Source: Candidatus Desantisiibacteriota bacterium (lineage in GTDB: Bacteria; JACRDZ01). Taken from it: a stretch of 8,906 nucleotides of DNA. Shown here one piece after another: positions 2,855 to 8,049 of the stretch. The stretch's first letter is position 1. Each line of letters begins with the position of its first letter. The stretch lies in assembly GCA_016209155.1 (NCBI GenBank), contig JACQWU010000025.1, forward strand, positions 1 to 8,906. The letters are read 5' to 3'. The notes beneath the pieces were generated by a model. It made no database searches, was not told where the DNA came from, and saw only the letters and a list, made by a program, of their open reading frames with translations. Both the position numbers and the translations under genes were made by a program.

Positions 2855-3021
2855 AAATAATAATTTGAAATTTTAGATTTGAAAGTATGCAGCAGAGTTA
2901 TAACTCTTGTGCTTATAGATTGTAATAGGTTGGAATCTCTATTAAATCTCCGAGTGAATATGAGTTATCCTTTGTCGATATAAGGTGGGAGCAATTTCCA
3001 GATTGCGATGATTTGTTCGAT
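2855..3021. repeat. 167-bp direct repeat, left copy
   Basis: This aligns without gaps to 6293-6459 (offset 3438), with only 4 mismatches. The right copy contains the last 35 codons and stop of nnrD on the minus strand plus about 58 bases beyond, so the left copy reads as an nnrD tail without a gene. It holds the perfect 14-bp palindrome AGAGTTATAACTCT (2894-2907) and an imperfect GCAAT...ATTGC hairpin (2991-3006). It begins 8 bases after the cytochrome stop codon. It could be a dispersed intergenic repeat, or one end of a duplication or insertion that brought in the accessory genes. Confidence 0.9.
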
Positions 3022-3278
3022 TATAAAAAGAATCGCAAATAAGATTAATTTATAAAATCAAACAACCAATATCCTCGACCTTCTATTCCATTGAGCTTGC
3101 ATCTACCCCAGACAACCTACCTATTACAAATTTTTAACTAAAAATTTTGTCTAAAAATGTTTTTAATGGTAAAATATAAATTCAAGTATAGGAAATTGAA
3201 AGTTTGGTTATAGCGGGGCTGTCTAAAAAAGTGCAAAAACCGCTTTCCCGTCATTCCCGCAAAAGCGAAAAAAAATAT
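3022..3278. other. Gene-free stretch between left direct repeat and BrxA-like gene
   Basis: I see no coding region on either strand. The stretch contains a strongly AT palindrome around 3128-3148 (AAATTTTTA arms), a possible promoter at 3147-3175, and at about 3215-3268 a segment ending in CGTCATTCCCGC, which resembles a common dispersed bacterial repeat fragment. The reading frame of the next gene extends upstream into this segment from a TTG at 3204, but the extra 25 residues look repeat-encoded rather than native. Confidence 0.5.
3147..3175 (+). promoter_or_regulatory. Possible sigma-70 promoter for the BrxA-like gene
   Basis: TTGTCT (3147-3152) is followed after exactly 17 bases by TAAAAT (3170-3175). 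The -35 matches the consensus in 4 of 6 positions and the -10 in 5 of 6. It points toward the BrxA-like gene, whose ATG is about 100 bases downstream. The AT-rich background makes chance matches common. Confidence 0.35.
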
Positions 3279-3773
3279 ATGGAAAAACTCTATAAAGCAA
3301 ATATAACAGCCGGCGCGTTATTGGTACCTGAAAGCAGAAAGATTGCGAATCTTATGATATGCAATGTTTCACCTCAAGAATGGAAGGATGCGATTGAACA
3401 AAAAAACATCCTGCAAAAATTGAGCGTATCTTCGTCAAAACGTGTAGCATCACATATACGTTCGCGTTTAGAACTTATGACGCCTGAGCTGTGGCAGATG
3501 GTTCGGGACGGGGACGCTGTTCTTTCTACACAGGCGGTTTTTGCGGCGGCTATTAAACATTGCCGGATCTTAGGCGATTATCTTGATCTTGTTGTACGCG
3601 AGCAATTTAGAAGGCTTGAAGACAAGCTGACCCCTGCATTATGGGATGAGTTTATTTTGTCACTCGACCTCGATGATGGAGTTAAAGTAAATTATGGAAA
3701 ATTTGGCGAACTTTTAGCAGATGTAAAAAAAATCACCGGAACAAAAGAGGAAAAAGATGAATCTACTGATTAA
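3279..3773 (+). CDS. brxA: BrxA-like (DUF1819) N-terminal region fused to a PglX-like C-terminal tail; probable BREX deletion scar
   Basis: The frame gives 164 residues from ATG 3279. Residues 1-127 match the BrxA/DUF1819 pattern as I know it: LYKANITAGALL, PESRKIA, ENILQK-like NILQK, R.R.E.MTPELW, then AAIKHCRILGDYL and LTPALWDEF. BrxA is a small conserved DNA-binding component of BREX phage defence and is usually about 200 residues long, so the last third is missing. From about residue 129 the sequence becomes DLDDGVKVNYGKFGELL, which resembles the extreme C-terminus of PglX-type adenine methyltransferases rather than BrxA. I infer that an internal deletion removed the genes normally lying between and left an in-frame chimera. 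A longer start at TTG 3204 is possible, but it would encode repeat-like sequence. The ATG has no clear ribosome site. G+C is higher than in the toxin-antitoxin genes that follow. BrxA identity is fairly likely; the tail assignment is from memory. Confidence 0.62.
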   Translation: MEKLYKANITAGALLVPESRKIANLMICNVSPQEWKDAIEQKNILQKLSVSSSKRVASHIRSRLELMTPELWQMVRDGDAVLSTQAVFAAAIKHCRILGDYLDLVVREQFRRLEDKLTPALWDEFILSLDLDDGVKVNYGKFGELLADVKKITGTKEEKDESTD

Positions 3774-3783
3774 TTATTATCAT

Positions 3784-3807
3784 TTAGTTAGTTAGTTAGT
3801 TAGTTAG
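3784..3807. repeat. Six tandem TTAG tetranucleotides
   Basis: TTAG is repeated six times without interruption just after the stop codon of the BrxA-like chimera. Each unit reads as a stop codon (TAG) in one frame. It is a simple-sequence tract prone to slippage, and nothing shows a function. Confidence 0.9.
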
Positions 3808-3830
3808 AGAAGAAGTATGTTCAATTAATC

Positions 3831-3859
3831 TTGACAAAGTGTAGTTTGTAAGCTACAAT
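3831..3859 (+). promoter_or_regulatory. Strong sigma-70 promoter with overlapping inverted repeat, toxin-antitoxin type
   Basis: TTGACA (3831-3836), a 17-base spacer, then TACAAT (3854-3859) make a near-consensus promoter. The inverted repeat TGTAG (3840-3844)/CTACA (3853-3857) overlaps the spacer and -10, a placement typical of autoregulatory operators bound by antitoxins of HigA type. The toxin ATG is at 3870, only 10 bases past the -10, so the transcript would be leaderless or nearly so. Confidence 0.7.
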
Positions 3860-3869
3860 ATTGTTAACA

Positions 3870-4257
3870 ATGATAAAAACAATAATTTCATACAAAACAC
3901 TAGAATAATAAAGAACCATTTACAGATTGGCTTTTTTCTTTAAAAGATAAAGTTTCTAAAAAAAAATATAGAACATTAAATAAAATTGAAGAAGAATATT
4001 TTACAATACATCCAAAAGAAATTAAGCAGTACCTTGAGATTGCTTTAGAAGAATATCAGAGAGATGGTGACGAAAAAGCTTTTCTATCTTCACTTGCAGT
4101 GGTCACCAAAGTAAAAGGTGGTTTTACAAAACTTTCTAAAGAAACTAGTTTGAATAGAGAGCATTTGTACAGAGCACTATCTAAAAACGGTAATCCTAAA
4201 TTTTCAACCGTTATACAAATACTTAATTCAATGGATATTAATTTAAAGCTATCATAA
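3870..4257 (+). pseudogene. Broken HigBA-type toxin-antitoxin module: toxin start joined to antitoxin end
   Basis: ATG 3870 opens MIKTIISYKTLE and hits TAA TAA at 3906-3911. One base out of frame the sequence continues KEPFTDWLFSLKDKV...NKIEEEYF (from 3910), which is the N-terminal region of RelE/HigB-like toxins (PF.DWL.SLKDK pattern). A single extra T near 3906 explains the shift. From about 4015 the same frame becomes KEIKQYLEIALEEYQ and runs to a TAA at 4255. This is the TIGR02684-like addiction antidote family, with a helix-turn-helix (GGFTKLSKETSL, then LYRALSKNGNPKFST). The toxin C-terminal two thirds, the toxin stop and the antitoxin start are therefore missing: an in-frame deletion joined the two genes. 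The toxin cannot be active. The antitoxin DNA-binding half is whole but has no start codon of its own before the toxin part. Its promoter and operator remain at 3831-3859. Confidence 0.75.
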
Positions 4258-4505
4258 TCCTGAAATTGAATTTGAAAACGATTATGCCGGGAATCAGTTT
4301 AAACAGTGAAAAAGGGGTCAAGTCTCGACTTGACTACATGTTATGCGGTTGAGTGAGGTTGAGTATAAAATATAGTATGAATGTATAGTGTGAAAAGTTA
4401 TAAAAGTGCTGTAAAATATTTAGAAAAATTTAAAGCAGTGTCAAGAGGATTGCAATTTAAAAGCACCGTTTAATGAACTAAAAAACCGGAGCAAAAGAGA
4501 AAAAA
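4258..4505. other. Gene-free stretch after the broken HigBA module
   Basis: I find no recognisable gene. A 30-codon frame at 4381-4473 is the longest plausible small ORF, but it has no ribosome site and no family resemblance. The stretch contains the REP-like palindrome at 4317-4334 and a short direct repeat of GGTTGAG at about 4347-4363. Confidence 0.5.
4317..4334. repeat. REP-like palindrome
   Basis: GTCAAGT and ACTTGAC are perfect 7-base arms around CTCG, preceded by GGG. The pattern resembles the repetitive palindromes moved by REP-associated tyrosine transposases (RAYT). No transposase is in this window, and only this one copy is seen. Confidence 0.6.
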
Positions 4506-4534
4506 ATTGACTTATTTAGTTTTAAATATTAAAA
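4506..4534 (+). promoter_or_regulatory. Probable sigma-70 promoter for the second toxin-antitoxin pair
   Basis: TTGACT (4506-4511), a 17-base spacer and TAAAAT (4529-4534) match the consensus in 5 of 6 positions each. Transcription would start near 4541 and run through the structured repeat at 4577-4703 before the antitoxin ATG at 4720, giving a leader of about 180 bases. Confidence 0.55.
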
Positions 4535-4576
4535 TAATATTTATAATTTATTAGGAATAAGGACTACTATAATAAA

Positions 4577-4703
4577 TTTATCTGGATGTGCCATTAATAC
4601 CCTGCCTTTCGAAGGCAGGGATGAATTGGCACAAAAATAAATAATAAAGAATTCCTATCAGAGACAGAAGATACCCTGCGGTCTCTGCCGCAGAGTTCTT
4701 CAT
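4577..4703 (+). repeat. 127-bp structured repeat, copy B, upstream of the antitoxin
   Basis: This is the partner of 1070-1196. The first hairpin (4588-4632) has arms GTGCCA/TGGCAC and a near-perfect CCCTGCCTT/AAGGCAGGG inner stem. The second has CTGCGG (4676-4681)/CCGCAG (4688-4693), flanked by GAAGA/TCTTC. Its six-base loop TCTCTG (4682-4687) is fully complementary to CAGAGA (4659-4664). It ends 16 bases before the ATG, and both copies are followed by AAAAAGGGA as ribosome site. In the apical part of hairpin 2 copy B pairs better than copy A; in the lower part copy A pairs better. That pattern looks like drifting copies of a stable parent. Confidence 0.75.
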
Positions 4704-4719
4704 TAAAAAGGGAATTATT

Positions 4720-4929
4720 ATGAATATAACTTTTGAAAATTTAGTAGAAGAAGTGAAGAAATTATCATTTGTGGAAAAAGAAGAATTAAATTTTTTGCTT
4801 GATAAATATTTAGTTGAGACAAGAAGGGGAAAAATAAAAAACAGCTACAGTAAAAGTCAAAAAGAATTTAAAAAAGGTAAATTAGTATTCTCAAACAATA
4901 TTGATAAATTAAAGGAATTGATTGAATAA
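4720..4929 (+). CDS. Antitoxin of a RelBE-type pair (69 residues)
   Basis: This is a short acidic/basic helical protein: residues 1-32 form a predicted helix-rich head (LVEEVKKLSFVEKEELNFLL), and residues 33-69 a charged tail ending in NNIDKLKELIE. The size, and the fact that its stop TAA overlaps the ATG of a RelE-family toxin frame by one base (TAATG), identify it as the antitoxin; I do not recognise the family by name. It lacks a clear DNA-binding fold, so autoregulation cannot be judged from sequence. The start is supported by AGGGA 6 bases upstream. Because the partner toxin has a nonsense codon, this gene is probably an orphan antitoxin. A promoter lies at 4506-4534. Very AT-rich codon use (AAA, TTA, ATT) matches the toxin. 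Confidence 0.7.
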   Translation: MNITFENLVEEVKKLSFVEKEELNFLLDKYLVETRRGKIKNSYSKSQKEFKKGKLVFSNNIDKLKELIE

Positions 4930-5198
4930 TGATTAAAATTTCTTTTGGCTCTTCATTTAAAAATGTTTTTAAGAAAAAGATTAAAAAAGATAAAAATTTA
5001 GAAAAAAAATTTTGGGAAAGAATAGAGATTTTTATTAACAATCCTTATGATGACTGATTAAGAACACATAAATTAAGTGGTAATTTAAAAGATTTATGGA
5101 GTTTTAGTATAGAATATGATGTAAGAATTATATTCTATTTTGTTGATAATACTAAAGTAGTATTTGTTGATATTGGTACGCATGATGAAGTTTATTAA
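4929..5198 (+). pseudogene. RelE/YafQ-family mRNA interferase toxin interrupted by in-frame TGA
   Basis: The 90-codon frame starts at an ATG overlapping the antitoxin stop. It ends with the family signature THKLSGNLKDLWSFSIEYD, then VRIIFYFVDN and VFVDIGTHDEVY at the C-terminus, where the ribosome-bound-mRNA-cutting residues of these toxins lie. Codon 43 is TGA (5055-5057), between NPYDD and LRTHKL; a TGG (Trp) or CGA (Arg) codon there would restore the protein by one base change. All other features are intact, so the nonsense change looks recent. No neighbouring gene uses TGA as a sense codon, and genes here write Trp as TGG, so recoding is unlikely. The truncated 42-residue product would lack the toxin core. 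Confidence 0.82.
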
Positions 5199-5449
5199 GT
5201 ACAAAACAAAGGATTGGGGAATAAGGGTGGTGCAGATAGTGCATTGCTAAAAATTTGGTAATTATAAAAGACTTTTAACTTTAAATGGGTGCATCCCCGT
5301 ATTTGCAATTTTTCATGCAGCCAATTTTGGTTCTAATGTATGATAATGTCTTTTTAACATTACTTGATTATCATATCGTGTATTCTATAATTACTAATAA
5401 GAATCATCACTGGAAAGTATAGATGCTTTAATTTTAATGATCCCTTTAA
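5199..5449. other. Gene-free stretch after the RelE pseudogene
   Basis: I see no gene. The stretch contains an inverted repeat ATGATAAT (5340-5347)/ATTATCAT (5367-5374) with an inner AATGT/ACATT pair, and a small GGGTGCATCCC near-palindrome at about 5287-5297. It ends at the pglX-like fragment. Confidence 0.5.
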
Positions 5450-5503
5450 CGAGCAGACACCATGAAAGAACTCCAAAGTTATGCCGTCGGTTGCATGATG
5501 GGA
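5450..5503 (+). pseudogene. Orphan 18-codon fragment resembling BREX methyltransferase PglX
   Basis: In the frame of the ATG at 5462 the sequence reads RADTMKELQSYAVGCMMG and then stops at TAG 5504; an in-frame TAA lies directly upstream. The core SYAVGCMMG matches a motif I recall from BREX-1 PglX adenine methyltransferases (SYAVGCMFGRYSLD). The fragment is richer in G+C than the DNA around it. It has no flanking continuation, so it is a relic, not a gene. Together with the chimera at 3279-3773 it is a second sign of a dismantled BREX locus. The match is short and from memory. Confidence 0.5.
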
Positions 5504-5525
5504 TAGTTCAATACTATGTTATCGA

Positions 5526-5541
5526 GCCTCATAAATGAGGC
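5526..5541. repeat. Small palindrome
   Basis: GCCTCAT and ATGAGGC are perfect arms around AA, about 20 bases after the stop of the pglX-like relic. A short hairpin could form, but there is no T-tract, so it is not a convincing terminator. Confidence 0.6.
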
Positions 5542-5574
5542 AATTACATATCATCGCAGTGTAGTAGTAGTAGT

Positions 5575-5592
5575 TGCCCGATTTATCGGGCA
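5575..5592. repeat. TGCCCGAT palindrome upstream of the nucleotidyltransferase
   Basis: TGCCCGATTTATCGGGCA is an 18-base near-perfect palindrome. It is preceded by four TAG triplets (5562-5573) and lies about 30 bases before the start of the nucleotidyltransferase gene. It resembles the short intergenic palindromes dispersed in many genomes. It may act as a weak terminator or an mRNA hairpin, but no T-run follows directly. Confidence 0.6.
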
Positions 5593-5622
5593 TAATTAAA
5601 TATCTTTTTAAAAGAGGGCAGA

Positions 5623-6294
5623 TTGAGTTTAAATCTTATAGTTAAAATGAAATTTGGTTCTCATCTTTATGGAACTTCAACATCTGACTCCGATATTGAT
5701 TATAAAGGAGTCTTCCTGCCTTCAAAGGCTGAAGTGCTGTTAGGGAAAATTCCTAAATGCCATAATTACTCTTCAGGCAGCAGGACAGAAAAGAATACAC
5801 CGCAGGACGTTGATATAGAGATCTATTCCCTGCATTATTTCATCAACCTTGCGTGCGAGGGACAAACAGTAGCCCTTGATATGCTCCACGCGCCGGATTC
5901 AGTCATTGAAACAGGTTCGGGAATATGGAGCGCAATAGTAAATGAGCGCAGCAGATTTTATACAAGAAACCTTAAATCATTTATTACTTATGCAAGGCGT
6001 CAGGCAGGTAAATATGGCATTAAGGGATCTCGTCTGAATGCAGTGTCTGAGGTGTTGAAGTTTTTGAAATCAGAGGTTTCCACACAAAAGCGAATGACGC
6101 GAATGCCGACTTTGAAGGTGAGTTGCCGGAATGTCTGCCGCAGGGTGTTGAAATCATCCAGAGGGTCGCTTATTCCCGATGGGCCGATGAATCCCAGGAC
6201 TGTGCACACAGTCGCGCGCGGAAGTAACGGGCATTTAGGATTATATCGTATTGAAATTCAGATGACGGTATTCAAAGCAATGGGGGTGGAGTAA
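5623..6294 (+). CDS. DNA polymerase beta-superfamily nucleotidyltransferase (COG3541-like), C-terminus aberrant
   Basis: The start is TTG 5623, supported by AGAGGG 6-7 bases upstream. The catalytic motif is at residues 12-26: GSHLYGTSTSDSDID, in which D24 and D26 are the metal-binding aspartates. A third acidic site is probable in QDVDIEIYSL (61-70). Residues 113-150 carry NLKSFITYARRQAGKYGIKGSRL, a conserved C-terminal element of this nucleotidyltransferase family. After about residue 150 (nt 6073) the sequence turns into Arg/Ser/Pro-rich text with no family resemblance, and another frame (6051-6227) is open there. The usual family length is about 250 residues, so the end has been replaced or frameshifted. 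Genes of this type occur beside BREX loci in some genomes, which fits the debris here. The substrate is unknown. Confidence 0.7.
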   Translation: MSLNLIVKMKFGSHLYGTSTSDSDIDYKGVFLPSKAEVLLGKIPKCHNYSSGSRTEKNTPQDVDIEIYSLHYFINLACEGQTVALDMLHAPDSVIETGSGIWSAIVNERSRFYTRNLKSFITYARRQAGKYGIKGSRLNAVSEVLKFLKSEVSTQKRMTRMPTLKVSCRNVCRRVLKSSRGSLIPDGPMNPRTVHTVARGSNGHLGLYRIEIQMTVFKAMGVE

Positions 6295-6459
6295 ATAATA
6301 ATTTGAAATTTTAGATTTGAAAGTATGCCGCAGAGTTATAACTCTTGTGCTTATAGATTGTAATAGGCTGGAATCTCTATTAAATCTCCGAGTGAATATG
6401 AGTTATCCTTTGTCGATATAAGGGGGGAGCAATCTCCAGATTGCGATGATTTGTTCGAT
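6293..6459. repeat. 167-bp direct repeat, right copy, overlapping the nnrD 3' end
   Basis: This is the partner of 2855-3021 (4 mismatches, no gaps). It starts within the stop region of the nucleotidyltransferase gene and ends inside nnrD, where it encodes the last 35 codons. It has the 14-bp palindrome AGAGTTATAACTCT and the perfect hairpin GCAATCTCCAGATTGC (6429-6444). The two hairpins and the placement in intergenic DNA suggest a dispersed repeat. Confidence 0.9.
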
Positions 6460-7317: not shown

Positions 7318-8049
7318 TCACCGCGAAGAAAAATTTGTGTATTTATTTTTTCGAAGAAAAATTTGTGTATTTATTTTTTCTTTTATCGCTTCATAAGGGA
7401 TGGAAATATCAACTACTGAAATTTTTCCTGAATAATTTTTGCCGGGGAACAGAAATTGACCGCGTTTCGGCAGTGCCATGGTTATTGTATGATTGGCTTT
7501 CACTGCTACGCCTAATACCTCTCCTGTATCAGCGTCAATTCCTGACGGGATATCAACCGAGATGACTTTTTTCCCGGAGTTATTGATAAGTTCAATTACT
7601 TCACCGGTTAGTCCTTCAACCGGCCTTGAGAGCCCTGTTCCAAGAAGCGCATCGATTAAAATATTACTATCTTTAATAATCTGTTTAAGATATGAAAGAC
7701 CGGATGATTTTTTTATTATGAGTATTTTGGCATTAAGGTTTTTTAATATTTCATAATTGATGAGAGTTTCTTTACTCATTTTTATAGGAGAGCCGATTAC
7801 AGCTATGGTAGTTTTATAGCGATGATTTAGCAGATGACGGGCAAGCACAAGTCCGTCACCGCCATTATTCCCTATACCGGCAAAAATACATATTTTTGTT
7901 TCTGCCGGATTAAAATTTAGATATTGTTTTTTAAGAATCTCAAAAATTTTTATTCCGGCATTTTCCATAAGAATATTGCCCGGGATACAAATCTTTTCTA
8001 TTGCATGTCTGTCAATATTCTGCATTTGGGTCTTTGTTACCAGATACAT
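7318..8049 (-). CDS. nnrE: NAD(P)H-hydrate epimerase domain, 5' half of split nnrDE gene
   Basis: The 243-residue frame starts at ATG 8049, with GGGAG about 6 bases upstream. NnrE interconverts R- and S-NAD(P)H hydrate so that NnrD can repair both. It shows the YjeF-N (Rossmann-like) motifs: MENAG (28-32), GIGNNGGDGLVLARHL (58-73), LIDALLGTGLSRPVEG (131-146) and VISVDIPSGIDADTG (162-176). The domain is complete. After FLR (residue 233) the protein continues with 10 residues, KNKYTNFSSR, from the second copy of a 28-bp tandem repeat and stops at 7318. The normal fused gene would continue into nnrD; one repeat unit shifts the frame by one base. The epimerase half should still fold. Upstream on the same strand is the DUF2148 gene, 113 bp away. 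Confidence 0.9.
   Translation of the reverse strand: MYLVTKTQMQNIDRHAIEKICIPGNILMENAGIKIFEILKKQYLNFNPAETKICIFAGIGNNGGDGLVLARHLLNHRYKTTIAVIGSPIKMSKETLINYEILKNLNAKILIIKKSSGLSYLKQIIKDSNILIDALLGTGLSRPVEGLTGEVIELINNSGKKVISVDIPSGIDADTGEVLGVAVKANHTITMALPKRGQFLFPGKNYSGKISVVDISIPYEAIKEKINTQIFLRKNKYTNFSSR
7325..7380. repeat. 28-bp perfect tandem duplication inside nnrDE
   Basis: Positions 7325-7352 and 7353-7380 are identical. Because 28 is not a multiple of 3, the extra unit puts the epimerase and dehydratase halves out of frame. Removing one unit gives an uninterrupted NnrE-NnrD fusion frame (AIKEKINTQIFL, then RGEAKKLLPERP), so this is the cause of the split. Confidence 0.95.

Follow-up and report, generated by a model that had tools for sequence, protein, structure and literature searches.

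Among the open reading frames of a Candidatus Desantisiibacteriota contig (JACQWU010000025.1), one starts like one gene of the BREX phage-defence system and ends like another. It lies at 3279–3773 of the window, i.e., the whole stretch of 8,906 nucleotides that was analyzed here, and is open over 164 aa plus the stop. The question is what such an ORF represents: the scar of a deletion, a protein kept with a swapped tail, or an artefact. Very probably, a former type 1-like BREX operon has been dismantled at this site and the ORF is a recent, non-functional deletion scar.

Two sources for a single reading frame

BrxA is characterized by two helix-turn-helix (HTH) motifs and by the conserved residues R56 and K147 (numbering of 7zge; PMC9240713). 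The first ~127 residues of the ORF had been read as BrxA/DUF1819 in the earlier note, and the Pfam profile BrxA PF08849 agreed, matching residues 4–127 (E 1.1e-30) and stopping there, at profile positions 2–125 of 184. PADLOC BrxA models reached up to 2.9e-44 on the ORF, with the match ending at residues 126–128. Solved BrxA (DUF1819) structures were also matched, 3bhw with 1e-37 and 7zge with 1e-9, the alignments being free of gaps along residues 2–127 and 4–126, respectively. An alignment to an Acinetobacter BrxA that reached residue 157 of the ORF was discarded as a chance extension. Compared to BrxA, the chimera has a PglX tail in place of the last ~70 residues, among them the region of HTH 2 and K147. 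With BrxA homology reaching no further than residue 127, the profile is not matched over its full length and the two-HTH architecture is lacking. The relatives used for comparison were eight loci from a single scan of contigs of bacterial and archaeal genomes, plus one more, L046, from viral contigs. Their BrxA has 198–199 aa in L002, L003 and L004, and after residue 128 the six full-length relatives (L002, L003, L004, L005, L007 and L046) read CKQRDP...EDFPPSTAKKMR and not DLDDGV; no full-length BrxA homologue sharing the tail of the ORF was found among them.

When the tail was analyzed alone (window 3645–3770), the matches were confined to the very C-terminal end of PglX-like models: the PADLOC PglX model at 1148–1172 of 1174 (1.3e-7), the NCBIfam PglX model at 1192–1210 of 1210 (1.3e-4) and the PADLOC model of type IIG methyltransferases at 1172–1204 of 1205 (3.4e-11). 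The ends of the PglX/BrxX structures 8c45 (residues 1176–1221 of 1225) and 9ewz were matched as well at ~1.5e-9, over the last ~48 residues of these proteins. The assignment of the tail to the end of PglX in the earlier note was correct. The N6-adenine methyltransferase and target-recognition domains of PglX are absent, and only its last ~37 residues are there. The best PADLOC model for this tail is the type IIG one, which could suggest an origin in a type IIG restriction-methyltransferase rather than in PglX. However, the tail, its stop and the overlap with the start of a Schlafen gene match the pglX of intact BREX loci with 81–83% DNA identity, and the full-length PglX of L003 also scores high on that same type IIG model, so that we consider this origin extremely improbable.

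Table 1. Coordinates in the window of the BREX piece, its borders and the surrounding debris.
Feature	Position	Strand	Evidence
Dispersed repeat, right end cut by the BREX piece	3177..3267	+	10 other matches in G000, 8 of 10 ending at window 3266–3267
brxA 5' part, codons 1–127 plus two bases of codon 128	3275..3661	+	blastn 82–83% to brxA of L002/L003; PF08849 1.1e-30
Junction brxA/pglX (putative deletion), in frame, without visible microhomology	3661..3662	.	column-by-column comparison with brxA and pglX of L002, L003 and L004
pglX, last ~37 codons plus stop	3662..3773	+	blastn 81–83% to L003/L004/L009; PglX models and structures
Schlafen AlbA_2 gene start, overlapping the pglX end	3757..3774	+	identical ATG overlap in L003, L004 and L009; PF04326 in L003
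Internal pglX scrap (ADTMKELQSYAVGCMMG), out of order, stop-closed	5450..5500	+	tblastn E 1.9e-5 to 3.6e-5 versus PglX of L004/L003; E 0.006 in another search
PglZ scrap (aa 22–46), not in frame, where a truncated RlaP ORF ends	6090..6164	+	tblastn 82% over 23 aa, E 8.7e-8; whole-genome search E 5.3e-5
167-bp direct repeat, left copy	2855..3021	+	98% identical to 6293–6459; no other full copy in the genome
167-bp direct repeat, right copy	6293..6459	+	98% identical to 2855–3021

The junction and the intact BREX loci

L002, L003 and L004 (titled Omnitrophota MAGs) are intact BREX loci belonging to the subtype found in the window. Their gene order is brxA, brxB, brxC, pglX, and directly 3' of pglX there is a pglZ in L002 and a Schlafen/AlbA_2 gene (PF04326) in L003. 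Compared at the DNA level with the single locus L003, positions 3291–3661 were 82% identical to brxA and 3662–3774 were 81% identical to the 3' end of pglX. The identity to brxA stops at ...TTGTC (3661) and that to pglX starts at ACTCGACC (3662). Since the two identities do not overlap at the break, the relatives reveal no microhomology there, and in a local homology comparison the similarity between the brxA and pglX break regions was not above that of shuffles. The hybrid codon (TC/A) preserves the reading frame, for which the chance is about 1 in 3.

Both ends of the ORF are thus collinear with the intact operon on the two sides of a sharp junction. Given the order of the intact loci, one deletion of about 7.8–8.4 kb would account for the chimera, the stretch missing from the window being about 7.8 kb by the coordinates of L002, 8.4 kb by those of L003 and 7.8 kb by those of L004. 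What the earlier note expected to lie between the two points, namely brxB, brxC and the greater part of pglX, is exactly what the intact loci contain there; its proposal of an in-frame BrxA–PglX chimera made by one deletion is supported by the two-source match, the sharp break and the collinearity. An intact BREX locus at the same genomic site was looked for but not found, the three other genomes of the phylum giving no match. A type 1 BREX system (brxA-brxB-brxC-pglX-pglZ-brxL), in a variant with a Schlafen/AlbA_2 gene like that of L003, is the source of the two ORF halves, of the overlap with the Schlafen start and of the PglX and PglZ scraps. None of its genes is left intact in the window, and the assembly gave no match to brxC.

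The pglX gene of L003 contains an additional ORF of 121 aa (MSVKSYKDLIVWQRAMELTQ...) at 16884–17249 of that locus, on the same strand and in another frame, which we take to be a 23S-rRNA-IVS-like four-helix protein. It is located where the L003 PglX (1360 aa versus ~1184) carries a repeat-rich insertion.

Broken borders and surrounding debris

The BREX piece is also broken at its 5' and 3' ends, beyond what had been seen before, and further BREX scraps are found downstream. At the 5' side it cuts a dispersed repeat; the copy of this repeat in L048 goes on with GGCGGGAATCC, while the window passes instead from GCG at 3267 into brxA AAAAAAAATATATGGAA. The native BREX leader upstream of the ATG has been lost. 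No Shine-Dalgarno sequence was found before the ATG of the ORF (the relatives have AGGGAG or AAGGAAG), and promoter-like matches were no better than those in shuffles. At the 3' side, Schlafen homology fades within a few codons of the ATG, with weak tblastn similarity up to about 3792, and six TTAG copies follow shortly after.

The debris stretch comprises positions 3022–6292 and is bounded by the two 167-bp direct repeats. It includes a YafQ-like toxin ORF (4929–5195) that is broken by an in-frame TGA, with a short antitoxin-like ORF (4720–4929) upstream, an antitoxin-like domain (PF21716) for which no start codon lies in frame near the N-terminus, and an RlaP that is cut short. A genome-wide search for brxC, pglX and pglZ was carried out in the own assembly, which is 79% complete, so that absence from it is not proof. 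There was no match to brxC, and pglX and pglZ were not found beyond the scraps in the window save for a weak match in a 968-aa frame of contig C57, which was read as another methyltransferase and not as pglX or pglZ. A functional type 1 BREX requires brxB, brxC, pglX and pglZ; of the three genes searched genome-wide, brxC is without a match in this assembly and pglX and pglZ are there as scraps only.

Other repeats and rearrangements are found in the window. Copies of a ~130-bp dispersed element, MITE-like or REP-like and matched at least 40 times across the genome, are located at 1067–1201 and 4574–4708. An exact 28-bp tandem duplication at 7324–7379 shifts the frame of the NAD(P)H-hydrate repair gene nnr, which is a single ~520-aa frame in relatives, and splits it into two ORFs. 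The NnrD ORF owes its final ~38 codons, past the end of NnrD homologues, to the right copy of the 167-bp repeat.

A second PglX-tail remnant

A different and older PglX-tail remnant (...SPLTN/MKIK..., in a 77-aa frame) that adjoins a dispersed repeat is common to L009, titled as an Elusimicrobia MAG, and to L057/L058, identical contigs in two MAGs. It is located at 1552–1903 in L009 and at 1498–1840 in L057, with 94% identity between the loci. This remnant is independent of that in the window and shows that such BREX decay recurs. Its pglX break is only ~14–17 nt away from the one in the window; for two independent breaks to fall so near each other in a 3.5-kb gene would be a coincidence of about 1%, as noted after the fact. 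The proximity may reflect a hot spot, or retention through the overlap of the tail with the start of the Schlafen gene.

Scar, retained protein or artefact

Chimeric pseudogenes produced by deletion inside an operon are a known kind; they likewise fuse in frame the beginning of one gene to the last part of another located further downstream in the operon, and only the particular genes differ here. According to this model, a type 1-like operon brxA-brxB-brxC-pglX-Schlafen gene-pglZ would once have been present at this site, and one illegitimate deletion of roughly 8 kb would have joined codon 128 of brxA to pglX 37 codons before its stop, the frame across the join being kept by chance at the one-in-three rate given above. 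Other breaks would have separated the piece from the leader at its 5' side and from the Schlafen gene at its 3' side, as well as from the remaining operon, leaving small PglX and PglZ scraps further downstream. One difficulty of this reading is the order, since the internal pglX scrap is located downstream of the pglX tail and simple deletions alone do not explain this arrangement.

The pattern of substitutions is of limited help. The dN/dS of the BrxA part versus L002 was 0.033, a value with little power because synonymous sites are near saturation and most of the divergence of this part is probably older than the deletion. Singletons at otherwise invariant positions were three in the chimera (D24N, L27I and R28C) versus 1–3 in each of five functional relatives. 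In this weak test, the aligned sequences give no sign of an excess of amino-acid changes in the BrxA part relative to functional relatives, as a retained gene would also show. A simulated neutral ORF of equal length, assuming 0.1 indels per substitution, stays open with a P of about 0.33 at 2% divergence and of 0.07 at 5%, so that the open frame needs no selection if the deletion was recent. The predicted structures had a mean pLDDT of 41.6 for the chimera and 42.6 for the intact L002 BrxA used as control (with the same seven sequences), both too poor for reading a fold.

The earlier note had left the choice between neutral debris and a retained regulator. Since the piece is cut on both ends and BREX scraps are found downstream, neutral debris is much likelier and the regulator is less favoured. 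A retained chimera, i.e., a truncated one-HTH BrxA with a swapped tail that has kept its DNA binding or disturbs another defence system, would be in line with a frame open over 164 codons and with a BrxA part that evolves like functional BrxA. However, we consider it unlikely: K147 and HTH 2 are gone (numbering of PMC9240713), there is neither leader nor ribosome-binding site, the genes all around are broken, and brxC is missing while pglX is present as scraps only. Nor was there a second example in the collections searched, the same chimera being found neither in one scan of bacterial and archaeal contigs nor in viral contigs (where the junction pattern was searched too), in plasmids or in 386 genomes queried with the tail. 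It appears very unlikely that selection has kept a DNA-binding protein with one HTH and a PglX end, such as a dominant-negative or antitoxin-like remnant, and that pglX in addition breaks recurrently near its 3' end. An assembly or library chimera that joined two distant reads might be suspected in a draft genome of 352 contigs and 79% completeness, but it is highly improbable, as the two sides of the break have no sequence in common through which an assembler could have linked them, the same contig carries several further, independent BREX scraps and the outer borders of the piece are breaks as well.

Implications

As a deletion scar, this locus would document how a genome loses a multi-gene phage-defence system: illegitimate deletions remove long stretches, and scraps remain amid repeats and toxin-antitoxin genes that are themselves dead. 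The ORF will probably be labelled “BrxA” or “DUF1819” by annotation pipelines although the system itself is missing. If the remnant were functional, a lone BrxA half would prove useful.
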